This document shows positions 5,410-27,692 of a DNA stretch of 36,575 nucleotides, piece after piece; position 1 is the first letter of the stretch, and each line of letters begins with the position of its first letter. The DNA lies in the IMG/VR virus record IMGVR_UViG_3300025655_000126, positions 1 through 36,575 of that record; one strand, written 5' to 3'. The stretch is from a virus. The position numbers were made by a program, and so were the translations under genes. The notes under the pieces were generated by a model. It ran no database searches. It worked only from the letters and a program-made list of their open reading frames with translations, and was not told the origin of the DNA.

Positions 5410-5662
5410 TATCGCAATTCCGAGTGATCCAAATACACAGAAGAAGATCCGTGAAGCACTGCATCAAATCTCTGACTCCATGACTCGTATTGATGCAGAG
5501 AAGGATCATATCAAAGACATTCTTCAAGTTGTTCAAGATGAAACGGATGTTCCAAAGAAATATGTAAGTAAGATGGCACGAATCTATCATAAGCAAAATC
5601 TTCAGCAGGTGAAGATGGAGAATGAAGATTTAGAGGCACTTTACGAAACAATCAATCCTTAG
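5402..5662 (+). CDS. dsbA: DsbA-like dsDNA-binding protein, 86 aa
   Basis: The sequence DHIKDILQVVQDETDVPKKY ... ARIYHKQN ... ENEDLEALYETI aligns by eye with T4 DsbA (IKDIRIRAKDELGVD ... LALYHKDN ... ETEEVVELYDTV). DsbA is a small dsDNA-binding protein that binds at late promoters. The ATG at 5402 overlaps the end of the clamp gene; a longer frame upstream would lie wholly within gene 45. The stop codon overlaps the stop of the convergent homing endonuclease gene, so the two 3' ends share four base pairs. Confidence 0.7.
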   Translation: MANIAIPSDPNTQKKIREALHQISDSMTRIDAEKDHIKDILQVVQDETDVPKKYVSKMARIYHKQNLQQVKMENEDLEALYETINP

Positions 5663-6258
5663 TTGTATCTTGACCAAGTTGTCGCATCAAATTCTTTTCT
5701 ATCTGATATGCGACATGCAAATTTAGGGCGAGGGATTCCTTTCCTCGCCCTAGACATTTTTTGTTTGGTTTTTTCTGAATGTTTCAACCCAATATGCGAA
5801 TCTGATATTCTCTTTTTATGATTATCTGAAAGGGTTGATCCTATTTTAGATGCAGACATTTTCTGTTTGGTTTCCTTAGAATGGTTCCGTTTTTTCCCAG
5901 CATCAGAAATTTTCTTTTTATGTTCGGAAGAAAACTTCTTTCCTTTGTGTGCGTTTGATATTTTTCTTTTGGTTTCTTCTGTGCGTTTCTTTCCCTTCTT
6001 TGCTTCGGACATCTTTCTTTTGGTTTCTTCTGTAAGCGTTCTGCCGATAGTGCTGATAATGTTCCCAGCAAATCTATCACCCCTATTCTTATGAATAGCA
6101 ACATGATCATCTGGATGCAGAGCAATTAAATTAGAAGGGTGGTTGCTTCCGCCACAGGATTGAGGTATAATATGATGTACATGGAATCCTTTGGGAATTT
6201 CCCATTCAGGATACCATTGACGCCAATAGTTAATGAGGTTTTGACGATAAATAGACAT
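5659..6258 (-). mobile_element. HNH homing endonuclease with NUMOD3 repeats, 199 aa
   Basis: This is the only convincing minus-strand gene. The N-terminal HNH domain reads HVHHIIPQSCGGSNHPSNLIALHPDDHVAIH. It is followed by about six tandem 17-residue NUMOD3-like DNA-binding repeats of the form (T/S)EETKRKxSxAxKGKK. This is a free-standing homing endonuclease, expected to cut phage genomes lacking it and spread by repair. It sits between dsbA and gene 44 of the clamp-loader operon. The start at 6258 has a GGAG ribosome-binding site on the minus strand and a late promoter (6317-6324) upstream; an in-frame codon at 6315 lies too close to that promoter. Confidence 0.85.
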
Positions 6259-6316
6259 GCTGATACTCCGTGAAAGTGTTAGAGTGTACAGGGATTGCCG
6301 TCCCGTGGTACACAAC

Positions 6317-7330: not shown

Positions 7331-7969
7331 ATGGTGCAAAAAAACGCAAAGTGGTGGAATAATGGTGTCATCAATAAACGGTCTATTGATTGCCCTGGAA
7401 ATGGATTTATTCCTGGAAGAAAAACATTCCAAAGAATGTCCCCAACTGGGGAAACGAGGAAAAAAATATCTGAAGCAAACAAAGGAACCTCTCCATGGAA
7501 CAAAGGATTGAAAACTGGACCAGAATCTGCAGAAACAAGAAAGAAAAAATCTGTTTCAGCAAAAGGAAATACTAATGCTGTTGGTTCTACTCCGTGGAAC
7601 AAAGGGTTGACTTCTGACGACCCAAGAATTGCCAGTTACTCCTCAAAACAGAGAGGACAATCCAGAAACGGTAACTATGTCTCAGGGGCGGATCATCCAA
7701 ACTGGAATGAAGACACTCCAGAGTACCAACGATTTAGAAAACAGGTTGATGTATTGACAGAAAAAGTGTATACTGAATACAAGCAAGAAATAAACCCAAA
7801 TGATTATCCAAGAACATTGGCAGGCGTTGAAAATGGATACCAACTTGACCACATCATACCAGTTCATTATGGTTGGGTGGTCGGTATGACTGCTGACGAG
7901 TTAACACAAAAAGAAAATTTGCAAATGTTGCCATGGAAAGATAACTTGAAAAAGAGTAATAACCTATGA
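7331..7969 (+). mobile_element. HNH homing endonuclease with NUMOD3 motifs, 212 aa
   Basis: The N-terminal half carries NUMOD3-type DNA-binding motifs (ETRKKISEANKG, ETRKKKSVSAKG), each followed by an S/T-PWNKGL element. The C-terminal HNH domain reads YQLDHIIPVHYGW ... KENLQMLPWKDNLKKSN. The domain order (NUMOD3 then HNH) is the reverse of the endonuclease at 5659-6258, so the two are independent acquisitions rather than a duplication. It lies between genes 44 and 62, adjacent in T4. Its stop overlaps the gene 62 start (ATGA), so the clamp-loader small subunit may be translationally coupled to it. Confidence 0.85.
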
Positions 7970-8775: not shown

Positions 8776-9192
8776 ATGGAAATAGAAAAAACAAACTTTG
8801 AAATGGTTGGTGAGTTTATGAATGCATTTGGTCAAGAAGTAAAGACCAAAGCAGAATTCCCAAGTAATGATGTTCAGGTTCTTCGTGTTGATTTGATCGC
8901 TGAAGAATTGAATGAATTGAAGGATGCAATCAATCAGAATAATCTGGTAGAGGTTGCTGATGCATTGACCGATCTTCTCTATGTTGTATATGGTGCTGGT
9001 CATGCATTTGGTATTCAGTTGGATACTTGCTTCCATGAAGTACATGCTTCTAACATGAGCAAGTTGGGTGCTGATGGAAAACCAATATATAGAGAAGATG
9101 GTAAGGTTCTGAAAGGACCAAACTTTTTTGAACCAGAACTGGTGGAAATTCTTTATGGAGAAAATCCACAATTAGAACTTGACTTTGGTTAA
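8776..9192 (+). CDS. MazG/PRA-PH-like NTP pyrophosphohydrolase, 138 aa
   Basis: The pattern LIAEELNELKDAINQNNLVEVADALTDLLYVVYGAG (EExxE ... ExxD) is that of the all-alpha NTP pyrophosphohydrolase superfamily (MazG, HisE, dUTPase-2 types), which hydrolyse non-canonical or alarmone-related nucleotides. Related genes are widespread in T4-like cyanophages. The ATG at 8776 has a GGAG ribosome-binding site; a GTG at 8761 is possible but less likely. The last codons (LDFG) include the -35 box of the next promoter. Confidence 0.75.
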   Translation: MEIEKTNFEMVGEFMNAFGQEVKTKAEFPSNDVQVLRVDLIAEELNELKDAINQNNLVEVADALTDLLYVVYGAGHAFGIQLDTCFHEVHASNMSKLGADGKPIYREDGKVLKGPNFFEPELVEILYGENPQLELDFG

Positions 9193-9207
9193 GATTGTTT
9201 ATATAAT
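9179..9207 (+). promoter_or_regulatory. sigma70-type promoter TTGACT-17-TATAAT
   Basis: TTGACT (9179-9184) and a perfect TATAAT (9202-9207) are 17 bases apart. The -35 lies in the final codons of the MazG-like gene. It would drive the H1-like gene and, if read on, the tmRNA. Confidence 0.8.
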
Positions 9208-9238: not shown

Positions 9239-9601
9239 ATGGGTATGGAACTTTTGATTGCAATTATTGTAGTTGCTGTTATTGCTATTCTGTGGGCACT
9301 TCGTAATGATATGAAGTCTGTTTCTTCTAACGAAGAAAAGGATGCTCGTGAAGAATTTGCTAAGGAAGTCCGTGATTGGGCAAACGAAACAACCGAAAAG
9401 ATGACAGTAACTGAAACTGAAAAGACCGAAGTGGTTGTTGAAGATAAGGAACCTGCTAAAGCAGTTAAGAAAAGTGTCACCAAGAAGGCACCTGCTGTAA
9501 AGAAGGCACCTGCTAAGAAGAAGGTCGCTGCTCCTAAGACTAAGGCAGCACCAAAAAAGAAGGTTGCTCCTGCTAAGAAGAAGGCAGCACCTAAGAAATA
9601 A
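9239..9601 (+). CDS. membrane-anchored histone-H1-like protein, 120 aa
   Basis: The N-terminus MGMELLIAIIVVAVIAILWALRND contains one strong transmembrane helix with an uncleaved-anchor appearance. An acidic linker rich in Glu and Thr follows, then a C-terminal tail from about residue 74 made almost entirely of Lys, Ala and Pro (KKAPAVKKAPAKKKVAAPK type repeats). The tail resembles histone H1 and bacterial AlgP/HctB-like DNA-binding tails. The combination suggests a membrane-tethered nucleic-acid binder; this is inference. AGGAG lies just upstream of the ATG, and a sigma70-like promoter precedes it. Confidence 0.7.
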   Translation: MGMELLIAIIVVAVIAILWALRNDMKSVSSNEEKDAREEFAKEVRDWANETTEKMTVTETEKTEVVVEDKEPAKAVKKSVTKKAPAVKKAPAKKKVAAPKTKAAPKKKVAPAKKKAAPKK

Positions 9602-9726
9602 TAAATAATGCAGTGCAGAAAAGTAACGGAGCGGAGAGTCTGCACCTCGTTGATGCTCCAGCATTATTCGTTGAAGCGAAATTGAAGGTTGTTTGGACGG
9701 CAGTTCGATTCTGCCCATCTCCACCA

Positions 9727-9794
9727 TAAGCATATTCTTTAAGGTCTTGGTCGTTACCAGCGTAGCAAAAACGGCGACAGAATATGCTTCTGAT
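9727..9794 (+). other. tmRNA intervening (excised) segment with perfect inverted repeat
   Basis: This segment joins the encoded CCA of the acceptor piece to the GGGG of the coding piece. AAGCATATTCT (9728-9738) is perfectly complementary to AGAATATGCTT (9779-9789). The stem extends the acceptor stem and closes a loop that, in known permuted tmRNAs, is removed by processing to give the two mature RNAs. Confidence 0.75.
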
Positions 9795-9905
9795 GGGGAT
9801 GTCTAGGTTCGACAGGCAATTGTGTAGGTTTCGTGGAGAATCGGTCAAGGCGAAAGACCGCAAGGATTGGGCGAACACCTGGTCGAAGAAGCAATTAAAC
9901 TAAGT

Positions 9906-9950
9906 GCAAACGATGACACTTACTATCAGGATCTTCGCCTAGCAGCGTAA
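9906..9950 (+). other. tmRNA tag-peptide reading frame (ANDDTYYQDLRLAA-stop)
   Basis: The resume codon GCA follows TAAGT, like the E. coli TAGTC-GCA context. The frame encodes ANDDTYYQDLRLAA and ends in TAA. It begins AND, like most proteobacterial tags, and ends LAA, the ClpXP-recognised terminus of the E. coli tag ANDENYALAA. It is four residues longer than the E. coli encoded tag. Confidence 0.85.
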
Positions 9951-9966
9951 GCCTGATTGGGGTTTT

Positions 9967-9998
9967 GGCAGTCCTACCTTATTACCCAAAGGACTGCC
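9967..9998 (+). other. 9-bp hairpin 3' of the tmRNA tag
   Basis: GGCAGTCCT (9967-9975) pairs perfectly with AGGACTGCC (9990-9998) around a 14-base loop. It lies 16 bases after the tag stop and probably forms the 3' end structure of the coding piece. There is no T-run, so it is not a classical terminator. The stretch 10001-10101 after it holds a short CGGAG/TTCCG hairpin and the ribosome-binding site of the next gene, and nothing else I can identify. Confidence 0.5.
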
Positions 9999-10101
9999 CC
10001 AGATACTTCCCCTTGCGGAGTGGCGTTCCGTTTGGGTTTGAGTTGTCTACAAGAGAACTCTGTAATCTTCGCCACATACACACACAACACAGGAGACAGT
10101 T

Positions 10102-10275
10102 ATGTCTAATAAAACACCGTTCGAGATTCGCCTTGAACTCTTAAAAATGGCGAAAGAAATGTTGGAACAAGAATTTTTTGTTAAGGCAGCACACGACAAA
10201 ACTCTTGCGTTCCCAACTGAAGCAGACGTGATTGCTAAGGCAAAAGCATTGAATGATTTTGTAAGCAAAGCGTAA
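10102..10275 (+). CDS. conserved small phage protein, 57 aa
   Basis: The ORF MSNKTPFEIRLELLKMAKEML... ends NDFVSKA and has a strong AGGAG ribosome-binding site before its ATG. It resembles a short conserved protein of T4-like cyanophages with a helical N-terminal half and no known function. It ends 8 bases before the Dam methylase start. Confidence 0.7.
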   Translation: MSNKTPFEIRLELLKMAKEMLEQEFFVKAAHDKTLAFPTEADVIAKAKALNDFVSKA

Positions 10276-12278: not shown

Positions 12279-12427
12279 GATGGAAAGTCTGGTGTCGTAC
12301 ACTCGGCACAAAAATCTCAGAGGATAAAAAAGAGGCAGATTATGCTTGCCTTTTTCGTACGATCTATACTATAATAATGTTTGTCACTTGCTTCTTTATT
12401 ATTGCTAACACGGTACGCCACTGGTGA
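12275..12427 (+). CDS. small membrane protein upstream of DNA polymerase, 50 aa
   Basis: The ORF starts MRWKVWCRTLGTKISEDKKEAD, continues through a hydrophobic segment (about residues 30-46, TIYTIIMFVTCFFIIAN) and ends VRHW. An equivalent MRWKVWC... protein lies directly before gene 43 in T4-like cyanophages. ATGA overlap with the previous gene and GTGA overlap with gene 43 support it. It also contains the gene-43 promoter. Confidence 0.75.
   Translation: MRWKVWCRTLGTKISEDKKEADYACLFRTIYTIIMFVTCFFIIANTVRHW
12346..12375 (+). promoter_or_regulatory. sigma70-type promoter TTGCCT-18-TATAAT for gene 43
   Basis: TTGCCT (12346-12351) and TATAAT (12370-12375) are separated by 18 bases, about 50 bases upstream of the polymerase GTG start and inside the small membrane-protein ORF. 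Confidence 0.65.
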
Positions 12428-13863
12428 AATTCTACACGAACTTTTTTATGCGAGGCAACTATGTCGTTGTCCGTGGTTACAATCATGGTGAGCGATTCAC
12501 TGATCGTATCGAATACAAACCCACACTATGGGTTCCTGCCAAAACAATGACTGACTGGCAAGCAGTTGATGGTCAGTTCCTTGAACCATTACAGTTTGGT
12601 GAGATTAAAGAGGCACGTGACTTCGTGCGTAATTATTCTGAGGTTGATAACTTCAAGATCTTTGGTTCAACTCTGTATGATTATGTTTGTGTGCATCAAA
12701 ACTTTACACAGGACTATGACACCGAGTTTGTAAAGGTCGTCAATATCGATATCGAGGTGGGATCTGAAGAGGGTTTCCCAGATCCGCAGGTTGCAACTCA
12801 ACCTGTAACTGCAATCACTGCATCAATCGATGGCGCATACTATACTTTTGGAACACAGGATTATACTGTTAAGCGTGAGGATGTAACCTACATTCAATGT
12901 GCTACTGAGCGTGAGTTGTTGATCAACTTCCTGCGTCACTGGCGTCATTGGGATGCTGACATTATCACTGGTTGGAATGTGCAGGGATTTGATATTCCCT
13001 ATCTCTATAATCGCATCACTAAAGTTCTCAGCGAGAAGGAAGCAAAGAAACTATCGCCTGTTGGTATGACCAACGAGCGTGAATATGAAAAGTTCAATCG
13101 TAAGCATTTTGAGATTGAATTGATTGGTATGACTGTGCTTGACTATCTCGATCTCTACAAGAAGTTCACATACTCTCAGCAAGAGTCCTATCGACTGGAT
13201 CATATCGCTCATGTTGAGTTGGGTGAGAACAAACTCGATTACTCTGAGGTGGAAACACTACACCAGTTGTACAAGTTGGACTATGAGAAGTTCATCGACT
13301 ATAACATCAAAGACGTGGAGTTGGTTAACAAACTCGAGGACAAGATGAAGTTGATTGACATGGCACTAGCGATTGCGTATGATGCCAAGGTAAATTATGG
13401 TGATGTGTTCACTCAGGTGCGTATGTGGGATGTGCTTATACATAATTGGTTGTATGATCGCAACATTGCTATTCCGCCGAAGGAACGCAAAGAGAAGAAT
13501 GCGCAATATGCTGGCGCATATGTAAAAGATCCGCAGGTGGGTATGCATGAGTGGGTTATGTCATTTGACTTGAATTCGCTTTACCCACACCTGATTATGC
13601 AGTATAATATATCTCCTGACACCTTTGTCGAGGAGGAGTTCGAATCTGTTACAGTGGAAGAGTTGCTTGATGGCAAGTCTGTTCATCGTGATGGTTTGTG
13701 TATGGCAGCGAATGGTCGCTTCTTTGATCGCACCAAGCAGGGTTTCTTGCCTGAGATGATGGATAAGATGTACAGTGATCGTGTGGTCGCTAAAAAGAAA
13801 ATGCTTGAGTCGCAAGACCTTCTCGAGCAAGTCAACAGGAGATTGAAAAATGAACAGTGGTGA
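12424..13863 (+). CDS. 43A: DNA polymerase gp43, N-terminal part (exonuclease + palm motif A), 479 aa
   Basis: Family B replicative polymerase, first half. The 3'-5' exonuclease motifs are present: Exo I NIDIE (D109, E111), Exo II N185...FD (189-190) and Exo III YNIKD (293-297). Polymerase motif A is DLNSLYPHLI (382-391). Translation ends in the fingers region just after AKKKMLESQDLLEQVNRRL, at a normal TGA. Motifs B and C are missing and are encoded by the ORF at 14116. Start is a GTG on the stop of the upstream ORF, fitting the family N-terminus MKFYTNFFMRGN. The joint length with the second half (851 aa) is near a full gp43 (T4: 898), so the polymerase is probably assembled from two chains. 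Confidence 0.93.
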   Translation: MKFYTNFFMRGNYVVVRGYNHGERFTDRIEYKPTLWVPAKTMTDWQAVDGQFLEPLQFGEIKEARDFVRNYSEVDNFKIFGSTLYDYVCVHQNFTQDYDTEFVKVVNIDIEVGSEEGFPDPQVATQPVTAITASIDGAYYTFGTQDYTVKREDVTYIQCATERELLINFLRHWRHWDADIITGWNVQGFDIPYLYNRITKVLSEKEAKKLSPVGMTNEREYEKFNRKHFEIELIGMTVLDYLDLYKKFTYSQQESYRLDHIAHVELGENKLDYSEVETLHQLYKLDYEKFIDYNIKDVELVNKLEDKMKLIDMALAIAYDAKVNYGDVFTQVRMWDVLIHNWLYDRNIAIPPKERKEKNAQYAGAYVKDPQVGMHEWVMSFDLNSLYPHLIMQYNISPDTFVEEEFESVTVEELLDGKSVHRDGLCMAANGRFFDRTKQGFLPEMMDKMYSDRVVAKKKMLESQDLLEQVNRRLKNEQW

Positions 13864-14116
13864 TGTAGTAACAGTCCTTACAGTGGCTGGTGAGTTTATC
13901 GGTAAGTTGAAGCACAAGGATGGTGACGCAGTAACGCTCGAAGATCCTCGTATGCTAGTCCATAATGAACAGGGAATGGGTTTTGCTCATGGCGTGTGTG
14001 TCACAGGTGAGTCTGCTCCAAAGATCGTTGAATTTATGGGTGTTGTTTTGATCACTCCAACCAATGATCAAGTCGTTAGTGCTTGGCGCCAAGCAACCAG
14101 CGGACTGATTACCTGA
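13850..14116 (+). CDS. conserved small phage protein inserted inside split gene 43, 88 aa
   Basis: The protein MNSGDVVTVLTVAGEFIGKLK ... VTLEDPRMLV ... VVLITPTNDQVV ... ATSGLI belongs to a small beta-rich family I remember from T4-like cyanophages, normally encoded as a separate gene and of unknown function. It starts 14 bases before the end of polymerase part A, with AGGAG (13837-13841) eight bases before its ATG, and its TGA overlaps the ATG of polymerase part B. It has no nuclease motif, so it is not itself a homing endonuclease. Confidence 0.8.
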   Translation: MNSGDVVTVLTVAGEFIGKLKHKDGDAVTLEDPRMLVHNEQGMGFAHGVCVTGESAPKIVEFMGVVLITPTNDQVVSAWRQATSGLIT

Positions 14117-15234
14117 TGAAATCAATTGATGAAATGGACCACCAGGAGTTGCTCCAAGCAAAGGTGCAACTCACGAAGGACATCTCAAAGTACAAGAATC
14201 TTCAGTTGGCAAAGAAGGTTCAGTTGAACTCTGCCTATGGCGCACTTGGGAATCAATACTTTCGATTCTTTGATGTGCGTCAGGCAGAAGCCATTACACT
14301 CAGTGGTCAACTGTCTATTCGATGGATTGAAAGACGGATGAATGAGTATCTTAACAATCTATTGAAAACAGAGGATGAAGATTATGTCATTGCGTCAGAC
14401 ACAGACTCGTTGTACATTAGGTTTGATATGTTGGTACACAAGTCTTTTGAAAAAAGAGGCGGAGTACCAGAAGTTGCTAAGACCGTGTCATTCTTGGACA
14501 CAGTCGCTCGACAGAAAATTGAACCGTTTATTGATTCGTGTTATGAAGATCTTGCTAAGAACATGAATGCCTATGCGCAGAAGATGTTTATGAAGCGAGA
14601 AGCAATCGCTGATAAAGGCATCTGGACTGCGAAGAAGCGTTACATTCTAAATGTGTATAACAACGAGGGTGTACAGTACGCTGAACCCAAGTTGAAGATG
14701 ATGGGTATTGAAACGGTGAAGTCTTCGACACCAGCAGTCTGTCGTGATGCATTGAAGAAGGCAATTGGGCTCATCGTAAATTCAGATGAGCAGACTGTAC
14801 AAGATTACATTGCTGGGTTCCGTGAAGAGTTTAAGAAGTTGCCTTTTGAAGATGTAGCATTTCCTCGGTCAATTTCAGACCTTGCTAAATATTCTATCGG
14901 CGGCAAAGATTTGGAGATCCCAAAAGGCACTCCAATTCATGTCAGAGGTGCACTTCTTTACAATCATCTGCTCAAACAACATAAAATGGAGAAGCGATAT
15001 GAGCGTATCAAAGATGGCGAGAAAATTAAATTCTGTTATCTACAAACTCCAAATCCAGTTAGGCAAAATGTTCTTAGTGTTCTTTCTACCTTGCCGAAAG
15101 ACTTCGGTCTAGAAAAATATATTGACTACGACATTCAGTTTGACAAGGCATTCCTTGAACCGCTGAAGATTATTCTCAGCAGTGTGGGTTGGAGTCCAGA
15201 AAAAACAAGTACACTAGAGGGATTTTTCTTATGA
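14116..15234 (+). CDS. 43B: DNA polymerase gp43, C-terminal part (motifs B and C, thumb), 372 aa
   Basis: Second half of the family B polymerase. Motif B is KKVQLNSAYGALGN (33-46), motif C is SDTDS (94-98), and the KKRY motif of the thumb/palm boundary follows. The C-terminus KTSTLEGFFL resembles the clamp-binding tail of gp43. The ATG at 14116 overlaps the stop of the inserted gene (TGATG) with no strong ribosome-binding site, so translation probably depends on reinitiation. A TTG start at 14083 would overlap the inserted gene by 34 bases and is less likely. All catalytic residues missing from part A are here. Confidence 0.93.
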   Translation: MKSIDEMDHQELLQAKVQLTKDISKYKNLQLAKKVQLNSAYGALGNQYFRFFDVRQAEAITLSGQLSIRWIERRMNEYLNNLLKTEDEDYVIASDTDSLYIRFDMLVHKSFEKRGGVPEVAKTVSFLDTVARQKIEPFIDSCYEDLAKNMNAYAQKMFMKREAIADKGIWTAKKRYILNVYNNEGVQYAEPKLKMMGIETVKSSTPAVCRDALKKAIGLIVNSDEQTVQDYIAGFREEFKKLPFEDVAFPRSISDLAKYSIGGKDLEIPKGTPIHVRGALLYNHLLKQHKMEKRYERIKDGEKIKFCYLQTPNPVRQNVLSVLSTLPKDFGLEKYIDYDIQFDKAFLEPLKIILSSVGWSPEKTSTLEGFFL

Positions 15235-24921: not shown

Positions 24922-27246
24922 ATGAAAAAAGTCGTATTTACATTCGGCAGACTCAATCCGCCCACCGTTGGACACCAAAAACTGGTGGACAAGGTCACAT
25001 CCATTGCTCGTAAAGAGCGTGCGGATTCTCGTATCTATCTTTCTCATTCTCAAAACAATAAGAAAGATCCGCTTGACTACAAATCAAAATATGCTATTGC
25101 TTCAAAGGCATTCGGCAGTATTGTAACTCGTTCGAATGCTCGTCAACCTGTTGACATTCTCAAAGAATTAGAGAAGCAGGGTTACACCGATGTAATCATG
25201 GTCGTTGGTTCTGATCGACTCAAGGGCATGGAATTCATCAAGAAGTACAACGGCAAAGAATACAACTTCAATTCTATCAATATCGTTTCCGCTGGTGAGC
25301 GTGATCCAGATGCAGAAGGTGTTGAAGGAATGTCTGCTTCTAAGATGCGTGCTGCTGCCATGGCAGGAGACTTTGATGCGTTTAAGTCTGGATTGCCTCC
25401 AAGAGTAAAGGGCGATGCTAAGAAGATTTATGATCAGTTGCGTTCTATTATGGAAGAACAACTGAACGAATTTGTTATGGACATTCAGCAACGCAGAGCA
25501 CGTGGTCGATTGATGCGTCGTCTTGCTAAAAAGATGGCACGTCAGCGTAAGATTCGTGAAAAGCGTATGGCAGACACAAACCGTTTAATGGCACGCTCGC
25601 AAAAAGCAGCAAAGAATATTCTGCGCAAGAAACTTGCTGGTGAGCGTGGTGCGCATTATAAAGAACTCGGTGCGGCAGAAAAGATTCAAATTGATAAGAT
25701 GGTAGAGAAGAAGTCTGCTGTAATTGGAAAACTTGCAAAGCGTTTGATGCCAAAAATTCGTAAGGCAGAAATTGCTCGTGTTGCTGCAGCAAGAGGACAA
25801 ACAAATGAAGAGATTGATTTTGATCTGATGATCGAAGATCTCTTTATGGATGAGGCAAATGAGTTTATGGCAGAAGTAGCACAAGATCAAGACATTAAAG
25901 ATCGTGAAGGCAGTCAACCTAAAAAATACTTCAAGGATCTTTCTAAGTCAACTAAGACGAAGCGTGATGCTGAGTTTAAGAAAGGTGCTGAAAAGGATTC
26001 AGATGATCCTTCTGCCTATCCTGACAAACATGCAGGTGATGATGACGCAGAAACTAAACCATCGAAGTACACCAAGAAGTATCACCAAATGTTTGGTGAA
26101 GAAGAAGAGTTTGAACTGACTGAAGAATCAGAGAGTGCGCTCAAGAAGAAAGCAGAGAAATCTGGCATTTCATATGGCATTCTGAAGAAAGTCTACGATC
26201 GTGGCATGGCAGCATGGCGTACTGGTCATCGTCCAGGTGCCACTCAGCAGCAGTGGGCATATGCTCGTGTAAATTCTTTTATCACTGGTGGTAAGACTCG
26301 TTCTACTGCCGATGCTGATCTTTGGCGTCAGCATAAGGGCAAGGCAGAGTCTTACAAGTTGAGTGAAGTACAAGAAATGCTTCGCCACGAAGGTAGCAAG
26401 TGGGTTCTTTATTCCAAGGATGGTTCTAAGAAACTTGGTGAGTTTGATACCAAAGAAGATGCGATGAAGCGTGAGCGTCAGATTCAATACTTCAAACATA
26501 TGGAAGAAGGAACTTATAAGAGGTTAAAAGATATTCGTAAAGCCCATCTTAATTATGAAAAGGAAAGAAGCGGTAGAGGATATGGATATAGCAAAACTTC
26601 TAAGATAGCAAAAGATGCGTTGAGAGATATTGCAAAAGATAAGGATCTTGGTAAAGCACCATTAAATCGTTATGACGACGATGATTGGGTAGTTCTTGAC
26701 AAAAACAACAACCCTGTAAAATATGCAGTGAACATGAAGGGCAAAACCGGAAATGATATTGGTCCTTCCAATCTTGCTCCAGGTCAAAAGAAGATGCAAA
26801 TTGGTGATGCTATAAGAAAGAAATATATTAAAGAAGATGTTGCTTTTGAATCGGTAACACCAAAGAAAACATTCTCAGAGATGATGAAGAAAGCAACTGA
26901 TCGTGAAGAGGGTACAAATAGTCTTGCAAAGTCCTACAAGAAAGATACTCCAGGTCAATCAATGGTTGAAGAAGCAGAATATGAAGGCAGAAAGGTCAAG
27001 TTGAATGACCCATTCCGTCTGCCTGCTGGTTCGAAGAAGAAGTTTGGTGTCTATGTGAAGAATGATAAAGGCAATGTGGTCAAGGTAACATTTGGTGATC
27101 CAAATATGGAGATCAAGCGTGATGATCCTGAGCGTAGAAAAGCATTCCGCTCTCGTCATAGTTGCGATGATGATATTGGACCAAAGTGGAAGGCTAGATA
27201 TTGGAGCTGCTATCAATGGCGTGCAGGTAAGAAGGTGGACAACTAA
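24922..27246 (+). CDS. nucleotidyltransferase-headed mosaic virion protein, 774 aa
   Basis: Residues 1-180 form a nucleotidyltransferase of the HxGH superfamily: VVFTFGRLNPPTVGHQKL (TVGH 15-18), VVGSDR (94-99) and the SASKMR motif (138-143, the ISxTxxR counterpart). A basic helical region follows (RRLAKKMARQRKIREKR). Then come several modules common in phage internal proteins: KKVYDRGMAAWRTGHRPGAT (DUF5824-like), a GSKWVLYSKDG...KRERQIQYFKH element and a C-terminal PFRLPAGSKKKFGVYVKN ... KARYWSCYQWRAG domain. Acidic linkers hold (L/I)xE sites such as ELTEE and LFMDEA that prohead protease could cut. Substrate and virion role are inferred. Confidence 0.7.
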   Translation: MKKVVFTFGRLNPPTVGHQKLVDKVTSIARKERADSRIYLSHSQNNKKDPLDYKSKYAIASKAFGSIVTRSNARQPVDILKELEKQGYTDVIMVVGSDRLKGMEFIKKYNGKEYNFNSINIVSAGERDPDAEGVEGMSASKMRAAAMAGDFDAFKSGLPPRVKGDAKKIYDQLRSIMEEQLNEFVMDIQQRRARGRLMRRLAKKMARQRKIREKRMADTNRLMARSQKAAKNILRKKLAGERGAHYKELGAAEKIQIDKMVEKKSAVIGKLAKRLMPKIRKAEIARVAAARGQTNEEIDFDLMIEDLFMDEANEFMAEVAQDQDIKDREGSQPKKYFKDLSKSTKTKRDAEFKKGAEKDSDDPSAYPDKHAGDDDAETKPSKYTKKYHQMFGEEEEFELTEESESALKKKAEKSGISYGILKKVYDRGMAAWRTGHRPGATQQQWAYARVNSFITGGKTRSTADADLWRQHKGKAESYKLSEVQEMLRHEGSKWVLYSKDGSKKLGEFDTKEDAMKRERQIQYFKHMEEGTYKRLKDIRKAHLNYEKERSGRGYGYSKTSKIAKDALRDIAKDKDLGKAPLNRYDDDDWVVLDKNNNPVKYAVNMKGKTGNDIGPSNLAPGQKKMQIGDAIRKKYIKEDVAFESVTPKKTFSEMMKKATDREEGTNSLAKSYKKDTPGQSMVEEAEYEGRKVKLNDPFRLPAGSKKKFGVYVKNDKGNVVKVTFGDPNMEIKRDDPERRKAFRSRHSCDDDIGPKWKARYWSCYQWRAGKKVDN

Positions 27247-27692
27247 TGGACGAAGTAATCGAAAAACTGAAGATCGCTTTCGGAACGAGTTTTGCGTTCT
27301 ATATGAAAGCGCATAACTTTCACTGGAATGTAGAAGGTCCAAACTTCTATCAGTTCCATGAGTTCTTTGGAGACATTTATGAAGAGGTTCAATCTTCCTT
27401 GGATTCCACAGCAGAACAGATTCGCACACTGGATGCTTATACTCCAGGTTCGCTTAATCGTCTTCAAGAACTTAGTGCCATCTCTGGTGAAGACAGAGTG
27501 GAATTATCTCCGCTCACAATGGTACAAATACTCTTGGCGGATAACGAAACGGCTCGGACTGCGTTCCTATCAGCCTTCGCTGCCGCAGAAAAACAAAACC
27601 TGCAAGGATTGATGGATCACCTTGCTGCAAGAATTGACGCACATAACAAACATCGTTGGATGTTAAACTCTCATCTAAAGAAGGTAGGATAA
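27246..27692 (+). CDS. dps: Dps-like ferritin-family protein, 148 aa
   Basis: The signature HNFHWNVEGPNFYQFHEFF ... SSLDSTAEQIRTLD is that of Dps, which forms 12-mers that oxidise and store iron and protect DNA from peroxide. The intersubunit ferroxidase ligands H26, H38, D53 and E57 are all present with the spacing seen in E. coli Dps (H51, H63, D78, E82). The length fits a core Dps without the long Lys-rich tail. It overlaps the upstream gene by one base and sits among late virion genes, so it could be packaged or made late. Confidence 0.85.
   Translation: MDEVIEKLKIAFGTSFAFYMKAHNFHWNVEGPNFYQFHEFFGDIYEEVQSSLDSTAEQIRTLDAYTPGSLNRLQELSAISGEDRVELSPLTMVQILLADNETARTAFLSAFAAAEKQNLQGLMDHLAARIDAHNKHRWMLNSHLKKVG

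Follow-up and report, generated by a model that had tools for sequence, protein, structure and literature searches.

The window, the whole 36,575-base IMG/VR contig analysed here, carries a genuine circularly permuted tmRNA (ssrA) gene of a T4-like phage, and the gene is very probably functional. When the whole window was searched with cmscan for Rfam families, the sole match above threshold was RF04321 (tmRNA_permuted) at 9666-9950 on the plus strand, with a score of 98.9 bits against a curated cut-off of 47 bits, an alignment spanning the full model (positions 1-213) and a chance expectation of E 2.9e-18 for the 36.6-kb window. ARAGORN independently called a single permuted gene (tmRNA*), which spans 9634-10041 and has the tag ANDDTYYQDLRLAA. 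Both programs agree with the first-pass annotation, which had placed a permuted, two-piece-type tmRNA gene of a T4-like phage at 9611-10000; the location holds, except that the 3' end given by ARAGORN lies slightly past that range. Besides the score, the gene has three further features that mark membership in RF04321: the 3' half comes first, the G3-U70 pair and A73 are present, and the tag frame has a stop codon and a hydrophobic end in -AA. Folded alone, the whole 408 nt gave a z of -1.67, which is not exceptional, and the case is therefore carried by the family models and by the comparison with related sequences. The gene, its parts and its two neighbours are as follows.

9239-9601, plus strand: upstream neighbour, a protein of 120 aa that is hydrophobic at its N-terminus and has a histone-H1-like tail rich in Lys, Ala and Pro
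9634-10041, plus strand: permuted tmRNA (ssrA) gene in the extent given by ARAGORN (tmRNA*), with the RF04321 core at 9666-9950
9699-9715, plus strand: T-arm GGCAG-TTCGATT-CTGCC, 5 bp (sequence; covariation over 101 phage tmRNAs among the matches listed)
9716-9726, plus strand: CATCTCC as the 3' strand of the acceptor stem, followed by the discriminator A and the encoded CCA; the first RNA piece is predicted to end here
9727-9794, plus strand: intervening segment of 68 nt, which tRNA-processing enzymes are predicted to excise (fold, coordinates, homologues)
9728-9738 and 9779-9789: 11-bp perfect inverted repeat, AAGCATATTCT and AGAATATGCTT; predicted terminal hairpin stacked on the acceptor stem
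9795-9801, plus strand: GGGGATG as the 5' strand of the acceptor stem, which has the alanine identity pair G3-U70; the second piece is predicted to start here
9906-9950, plus strand: tag reading frame ANDDTYYQDLRLAA-stop (ARAGORN, translation)
9957-9998, plus strand: 3' pseudoknot-like element after the tag (sequence, relatives, beta_tmRNA model)
10102-10275, plus strand: downstream neighbour, a protein of 57 aa from a family without known function, 'TPFEIRLELLKMAK'

The internal order of the gene is that proposed from the first reading: the 3' tRNA-like half with its encoded CCA, ending at 9726, precedes the 5' half, starting at 9795, the 68-nt segment with its perfect inverted repeat joins the two, and the tag expected to be of the AND...LAA type is present as a complete frame. 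The two acceptor strands form 7 of 7 pairs including G3-U70, with the discriminator A at position 73. For the acceptor stem together with the intervening segment, a folding energy of -32.3 kcal/mol was obtained (z -4.85), and none of 200 shuffled sequences was equally stable. Within the 3' element, the stem is formed by GGCAGUCC at 9967-9974 and GGACUGCC at 9991-9998, with the loop motif CCUUAUUACCCAA; a candidate second helix, noticed by eye, may be formed between UUGGG at 9957-9961 and the loop CCCAA at 9985-9989. The layout of this element is retained in related phages with different letters in the stem, and the beta_tmRNA model has at this position a hairpin with an CCUUGUUACC-like loop.

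In type, the tmRNA of the window is, as judged from its sequence, most likely beta-like, although its score with the beta model RF01850, 49.4 bits, is below the cut-off of 84 and comes from the tRNA-like domain only (model positions 67-176). Thus, of the Infernal comparisons that had been proposed as a check, that with RF01850 stayed below threshold, while the merged family RF04321 was clearly above its own; the relative L138 scored 117.4 bits with RF01850, above the cut-off. The gene shares with the betaproteobacterial two-piece tmRNA the gene order, the tRNA-like domain and the 3' hairpin with the CCUUGUUACC-like loop. In contrast, the RF01850 consensus has an intervening segment of about 29 positions, against 68 nt in the window, and lacks the final A of the CCA that is encoded in the window. 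The permuted tmRNAs of phages may represent a distinct type, characterized by the encoded CCA and the long intervening hairpin. Two pattern scans of 84,980 bacterial and archaeal species genomes, made without a positive control and with patterns that require an encoded CCA and an intervening segment of 40-70 or 50-80 nt, features absent from the bacterial consensus models, found no permuted tmRNA of the phage type. In phage and plasmid records, distant DNA searches with tmRNA queries gave only short matches, mostly to the tRNA-like domain, or nothing.

From its genes, the contig is that of a T4-like phage related to the Kyanoviridae. It contains the T4-type genes for RegA, clamp loader gp62, MazG, D12-class Dam and a split gp43, together with Hsp20-like, UvsX and gp41 genes, which were identified from their own sequences and from the conserved order in relatives; the setting among replication genes seen in the first-pass annotation is thus confirmed. 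The nearest isolates by UvsX are Methylophilales phage Melnitz (62%), which is classified under Kyanoviridae, and cyanomyophages (60%). The gp43 DNA polymerase, at 12424-15234, is divided into ORFs 12424-13863 and 14083-15234, and the small ORF between the halves (13850-14116) has a weak DUF6948 match; the gp43 parts match separately also in the relatives L127 and L131, with different spacing. Two ORFs resembling NUMOD3 homing endonucleases, one of them also with HNH (5659-6315, minus strand, and 7331-7969, plus strand), adjoin the clamp and clamp-loader genes gp45, gp44 and gp62, and a gene for a ferritin-like protein of the Dps type is located at 27246-27692.

Ahead of the 120-aa gene, a sigma-70-like site TTGACT-17-TATAAT was detected at 9179-9207 with 11 of 12 positions matching. 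The region contains 5 such sites, hardly more than the 3.2 of shuffled sequences, so this site is a mere hint that the 120-aa gene and the tmRNA are possibly cotranscribed. A T4 late-promoter-like site at 9600 was rejected, the frequency of such sites being within chance expectation. Lys-rich ORFs like the 120-aa neighbour precede the tmRNA in the relatives L127 and L194 and the tmRNA-less site in L131.

Among relatives chosen by UvsX, permuted tmRNAs were found in L127, L138 and L148 (RF04321) and in L194 (ARAGORN), at the site corresponding to that of the window, upstream of Hsp20/gp43; in contigs that reach far enough, the tmRNA mostly follows RegA/MazG directly. The letters of these four tmRNAs diverge widely. 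The T-arm, acceptor, intervening segment, tag frame and 3' element are recognizable in each, except for a degenerate T-arm loop in L194 and a weak intervening hairpin in L138; the tag translated from the L127 sequence is ANDDSYTQALAA. One more record, L122, has genes identical to those of the window. No tmRNA was detected at the corresponding site of the close relative L131 (UvsX 87%). A tmRNA is present somewhere in 4 of the 12 related records, and 8 gave no match, all of these records being fragments; because of L131 and these unmatched records, we conclude that phages can lose the gene.

Scanning IMG/VR with a pattern for permuted tmRNAs yielded at least 120 stretches, and ARAGORN called tmRNA* in 117 of the 120 loci among the matches listed. 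The set used for comparison included 101 distinct phage tmRNAs, that of the window among them, again from the matches listed; it counts sequences rather than independent events. In this set, T-stem positions 2, 3 and 4 were paired in all 101, with 4, 2 and 2 pair types, respectively, the mean pairing in shuffles being 0.49, 0.62 and 0.81. The terminal helix of the intervening segment was at least 8 bp long in 93% of the 101 tmRNAs among the matches listed, compared with 3% of the shuffles. Some positions of the acceptor stem were fixed by the pattern and are uninformative, and the invariance of this stem among the pattern-scan sequences is in part an effect of the pattern. The tags differ among the phages, mostly keeping the AND...AA form. 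The structure of the tmRNA is maintained in related phages, with compensatory changes in its letters. In a T4-like clade anchored on gp59 and not picked by tmRNA (L372-L448), a permuted tmRNA was found about 4-6 kb upstream of gp59 in 31 of the 33 loci with enough sequence, so that it is nearly a core gene in that clade.

Permuted tmRNA genes are common in phages from water. Among 18,146 phage genomes, 402 were reported to carry a tmRNA; of the 133 unique structures, 53 were two-piece by ARAGORN, and 50 of these came from marine or aquatic phages (PMC9004378). The same study described a two-piece permuted tmRNA in Melnitz, a T4-like lytic myophage, and permuted tmRNAs in 17 of 47 Melnitz-like contigs (PMC9004378). 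A tmRNA of the 'Betaproteobacter-class' was reported for Marzo, a Stenotrophomonas myophage likened to T4 (PMC8928761), whose relative Mendera was termed T4-like (PMC6940306). Both the Melnitz and the Marzo reports appeared in 2022, and together with the at least 120 stretches in IMG/VR they overturn the first impression that no permuted tmRNA had been described in a T4-like myovirus. A 2025 tmRNA database holds 79 bacteriophage sequences (PMC11915505). Using ARAGORN and RF04321, we confirmed permuted genes in IME-SM1, Yut2, DLP6, PaMx31, an Alcaligenes schitovirus and Melnitz; GenBank annotation of the tmRNA is present for Marzo and Yut2. The tmRNA genes of the Bxz1 type are one-piece and not permuted. 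Mycobacteriophage Bxz1 and Bacillus phage G, both among the earlier-listed phage tmRNAs (PMC4131195), share with the window a phage-borne ssrA gene.

Melnitz, the nearest isolate by UvsX, resembles the phage of the window in being a T4-like myophage with a permuted tmRNA (RF04321, 113 bits). Its tmRNA, however, is of the alpha type (RF01849, 106.7 bits), lies upstream of gp33/gp59 and overlaps a glutamine riboswitch, whereas that of the window is beta-like and lies in the RegA-MazG-Dam-gp43 cluster; no riboswitch was found in the Rfam cmscan of the whole window. Of the Stenotrophomonas T4-like phages of Menderavirus (IME-SM1, Marzo and Yut2), IME-SM1 and Yut2 have tmRNAs that are permuted (ARAGORN, RF04321) and of the beta type (RF01850, 93-96 bits), but these are located among tRNA genes near nrdA, unlike the setting in the window. 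The tag of the Stenotrophomonas T4-like phages is VAANDDSYTVRIAA, and the intervening segment of IME-SM1 is 57 nt long, against 68 in the window.

SmpB was found in none of 18 tmRNA-bearing phage records (the window, a fragment, and 17 records of 95-172 kb), while 10 of 14 control genomes were positive, so a phage tmRNA would depend on the SmpB of the host. A complete trans-translation system, with SmpB encoded alongside tmRNA, was not found, the window itself being a fragment. With an intact alanine identity pair, an encoded CCA, a tag frame and a stop codon, the simplest reading is standard trans-translation with host factors. We consider it highly likely that the window carries a beta-like permuted ssrA gene of the phage, the RNA of which would be cut into two pieces and rescue ribosomes together with host AlaRS, EF-Tu and SmpB. 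A single transcript would fold with the acceptor stem stacking on the intervening hairpin, and host enzymes would cut it at the CCA end (about 9726) and at G1 (about 9795), leaving two pieces joined by base pairs. Host AlaRS would attach alanine to the acceptor with its G3-U70 pair, and the charged RNA, together with host EF-Tu and SmpB, would reach ribosomes that have stalled on broken messages. There the tag ANDDTYYQDLRLAA would be added, the product degraded and the ribosome freed; during infection, the phage tmRNA would supplement or replace that of the host, presumably to the benefit of the phage.

Two other explanations were considered. The phage tmRNA could be a decoy or inhibitor, which is charged and binds SmpB but titrates the host system or redirects tagging without rescue. 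The tmRNA of phage DS6A, with little beyond the tRNA-like domain, was reported to inhibit, or to resemble an inhibitor of, E. coli tmRNA (PMC11915505, PMC4131195), and with no SmpB found in the phages the two RNAs would compete for that of the host. A decoy, however, has no need of a complete tag frame, a stop codon and a 3' element, all of which are retained under divergence, and this explanation is very unlikely. That the gene was acquired from a host in the recent past, or is a remnant, and has no role in the phage is extremely improbable: the corresponding site is occupied in phages whose tmRNA letters have strongly diverged with pairing kept, the gene is nearly universal in another T4-like clade, and the species-genome scans, run without a positive control, point to no recent bacterial source. 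The well-known role of ssrA as an integration site of mobile elements and the absence of the gene in L131 speak for such a capture.

The 'TPFEIRLELLKMAK' family, to which the downstream neighbour belongs, gave no convincing Pfam or PHROG match. A member of 78 aa is predicted to form a helical hairpin of two helices (mean pLDDT 91), and the copy in the window lacks about 20 middle residues. In IMG/VR loci picked by the 'TPFEIRLELLKMAK' protein, a permuted tmRNA was present upstream on the same strand in 42 of the 47 with enough upstream sequence, and in a divergent subfamily in 15 of 46 loci. Conversely, among the matches listed for loci picked by tmRNA, the 'TPFEIRLELLKMAK' gene was within 3.5 kb downstream in 38 of 67, and upstream or on the other strand in 1 of 55. 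The pair occurs in two main settings, the gp59/gp32/endolysin cluster (as in L088) and the RegA/MazG/Dam cluster of the window, and UvsX of phages with the other setting mostly has only 32-36% identity to that of the window. In the gp59 clade, where nearly all loci have both genes, synteny alone suffices to explain the linkage. A functional link, which we regard as unlikely, is weakened by Roseobacter phage CRP-9 and Phage C48C1, both of which have a member of the family but no tmRNA call. It is likewise unlikely that the tmRNA and the helical protein form a module transferred among several T4-like clades, in which the protein would act on the tmRNA or on rescued ribosomes.

To the permuted tmRNAs known from T4-like phages, the window adds a beta-like one in a replication-gene setting. 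Such genes prove to be widespread and are nearly core in one T4-like clade, and it is plausible that the phage tmRNA would take over ribosome rescue during infection.
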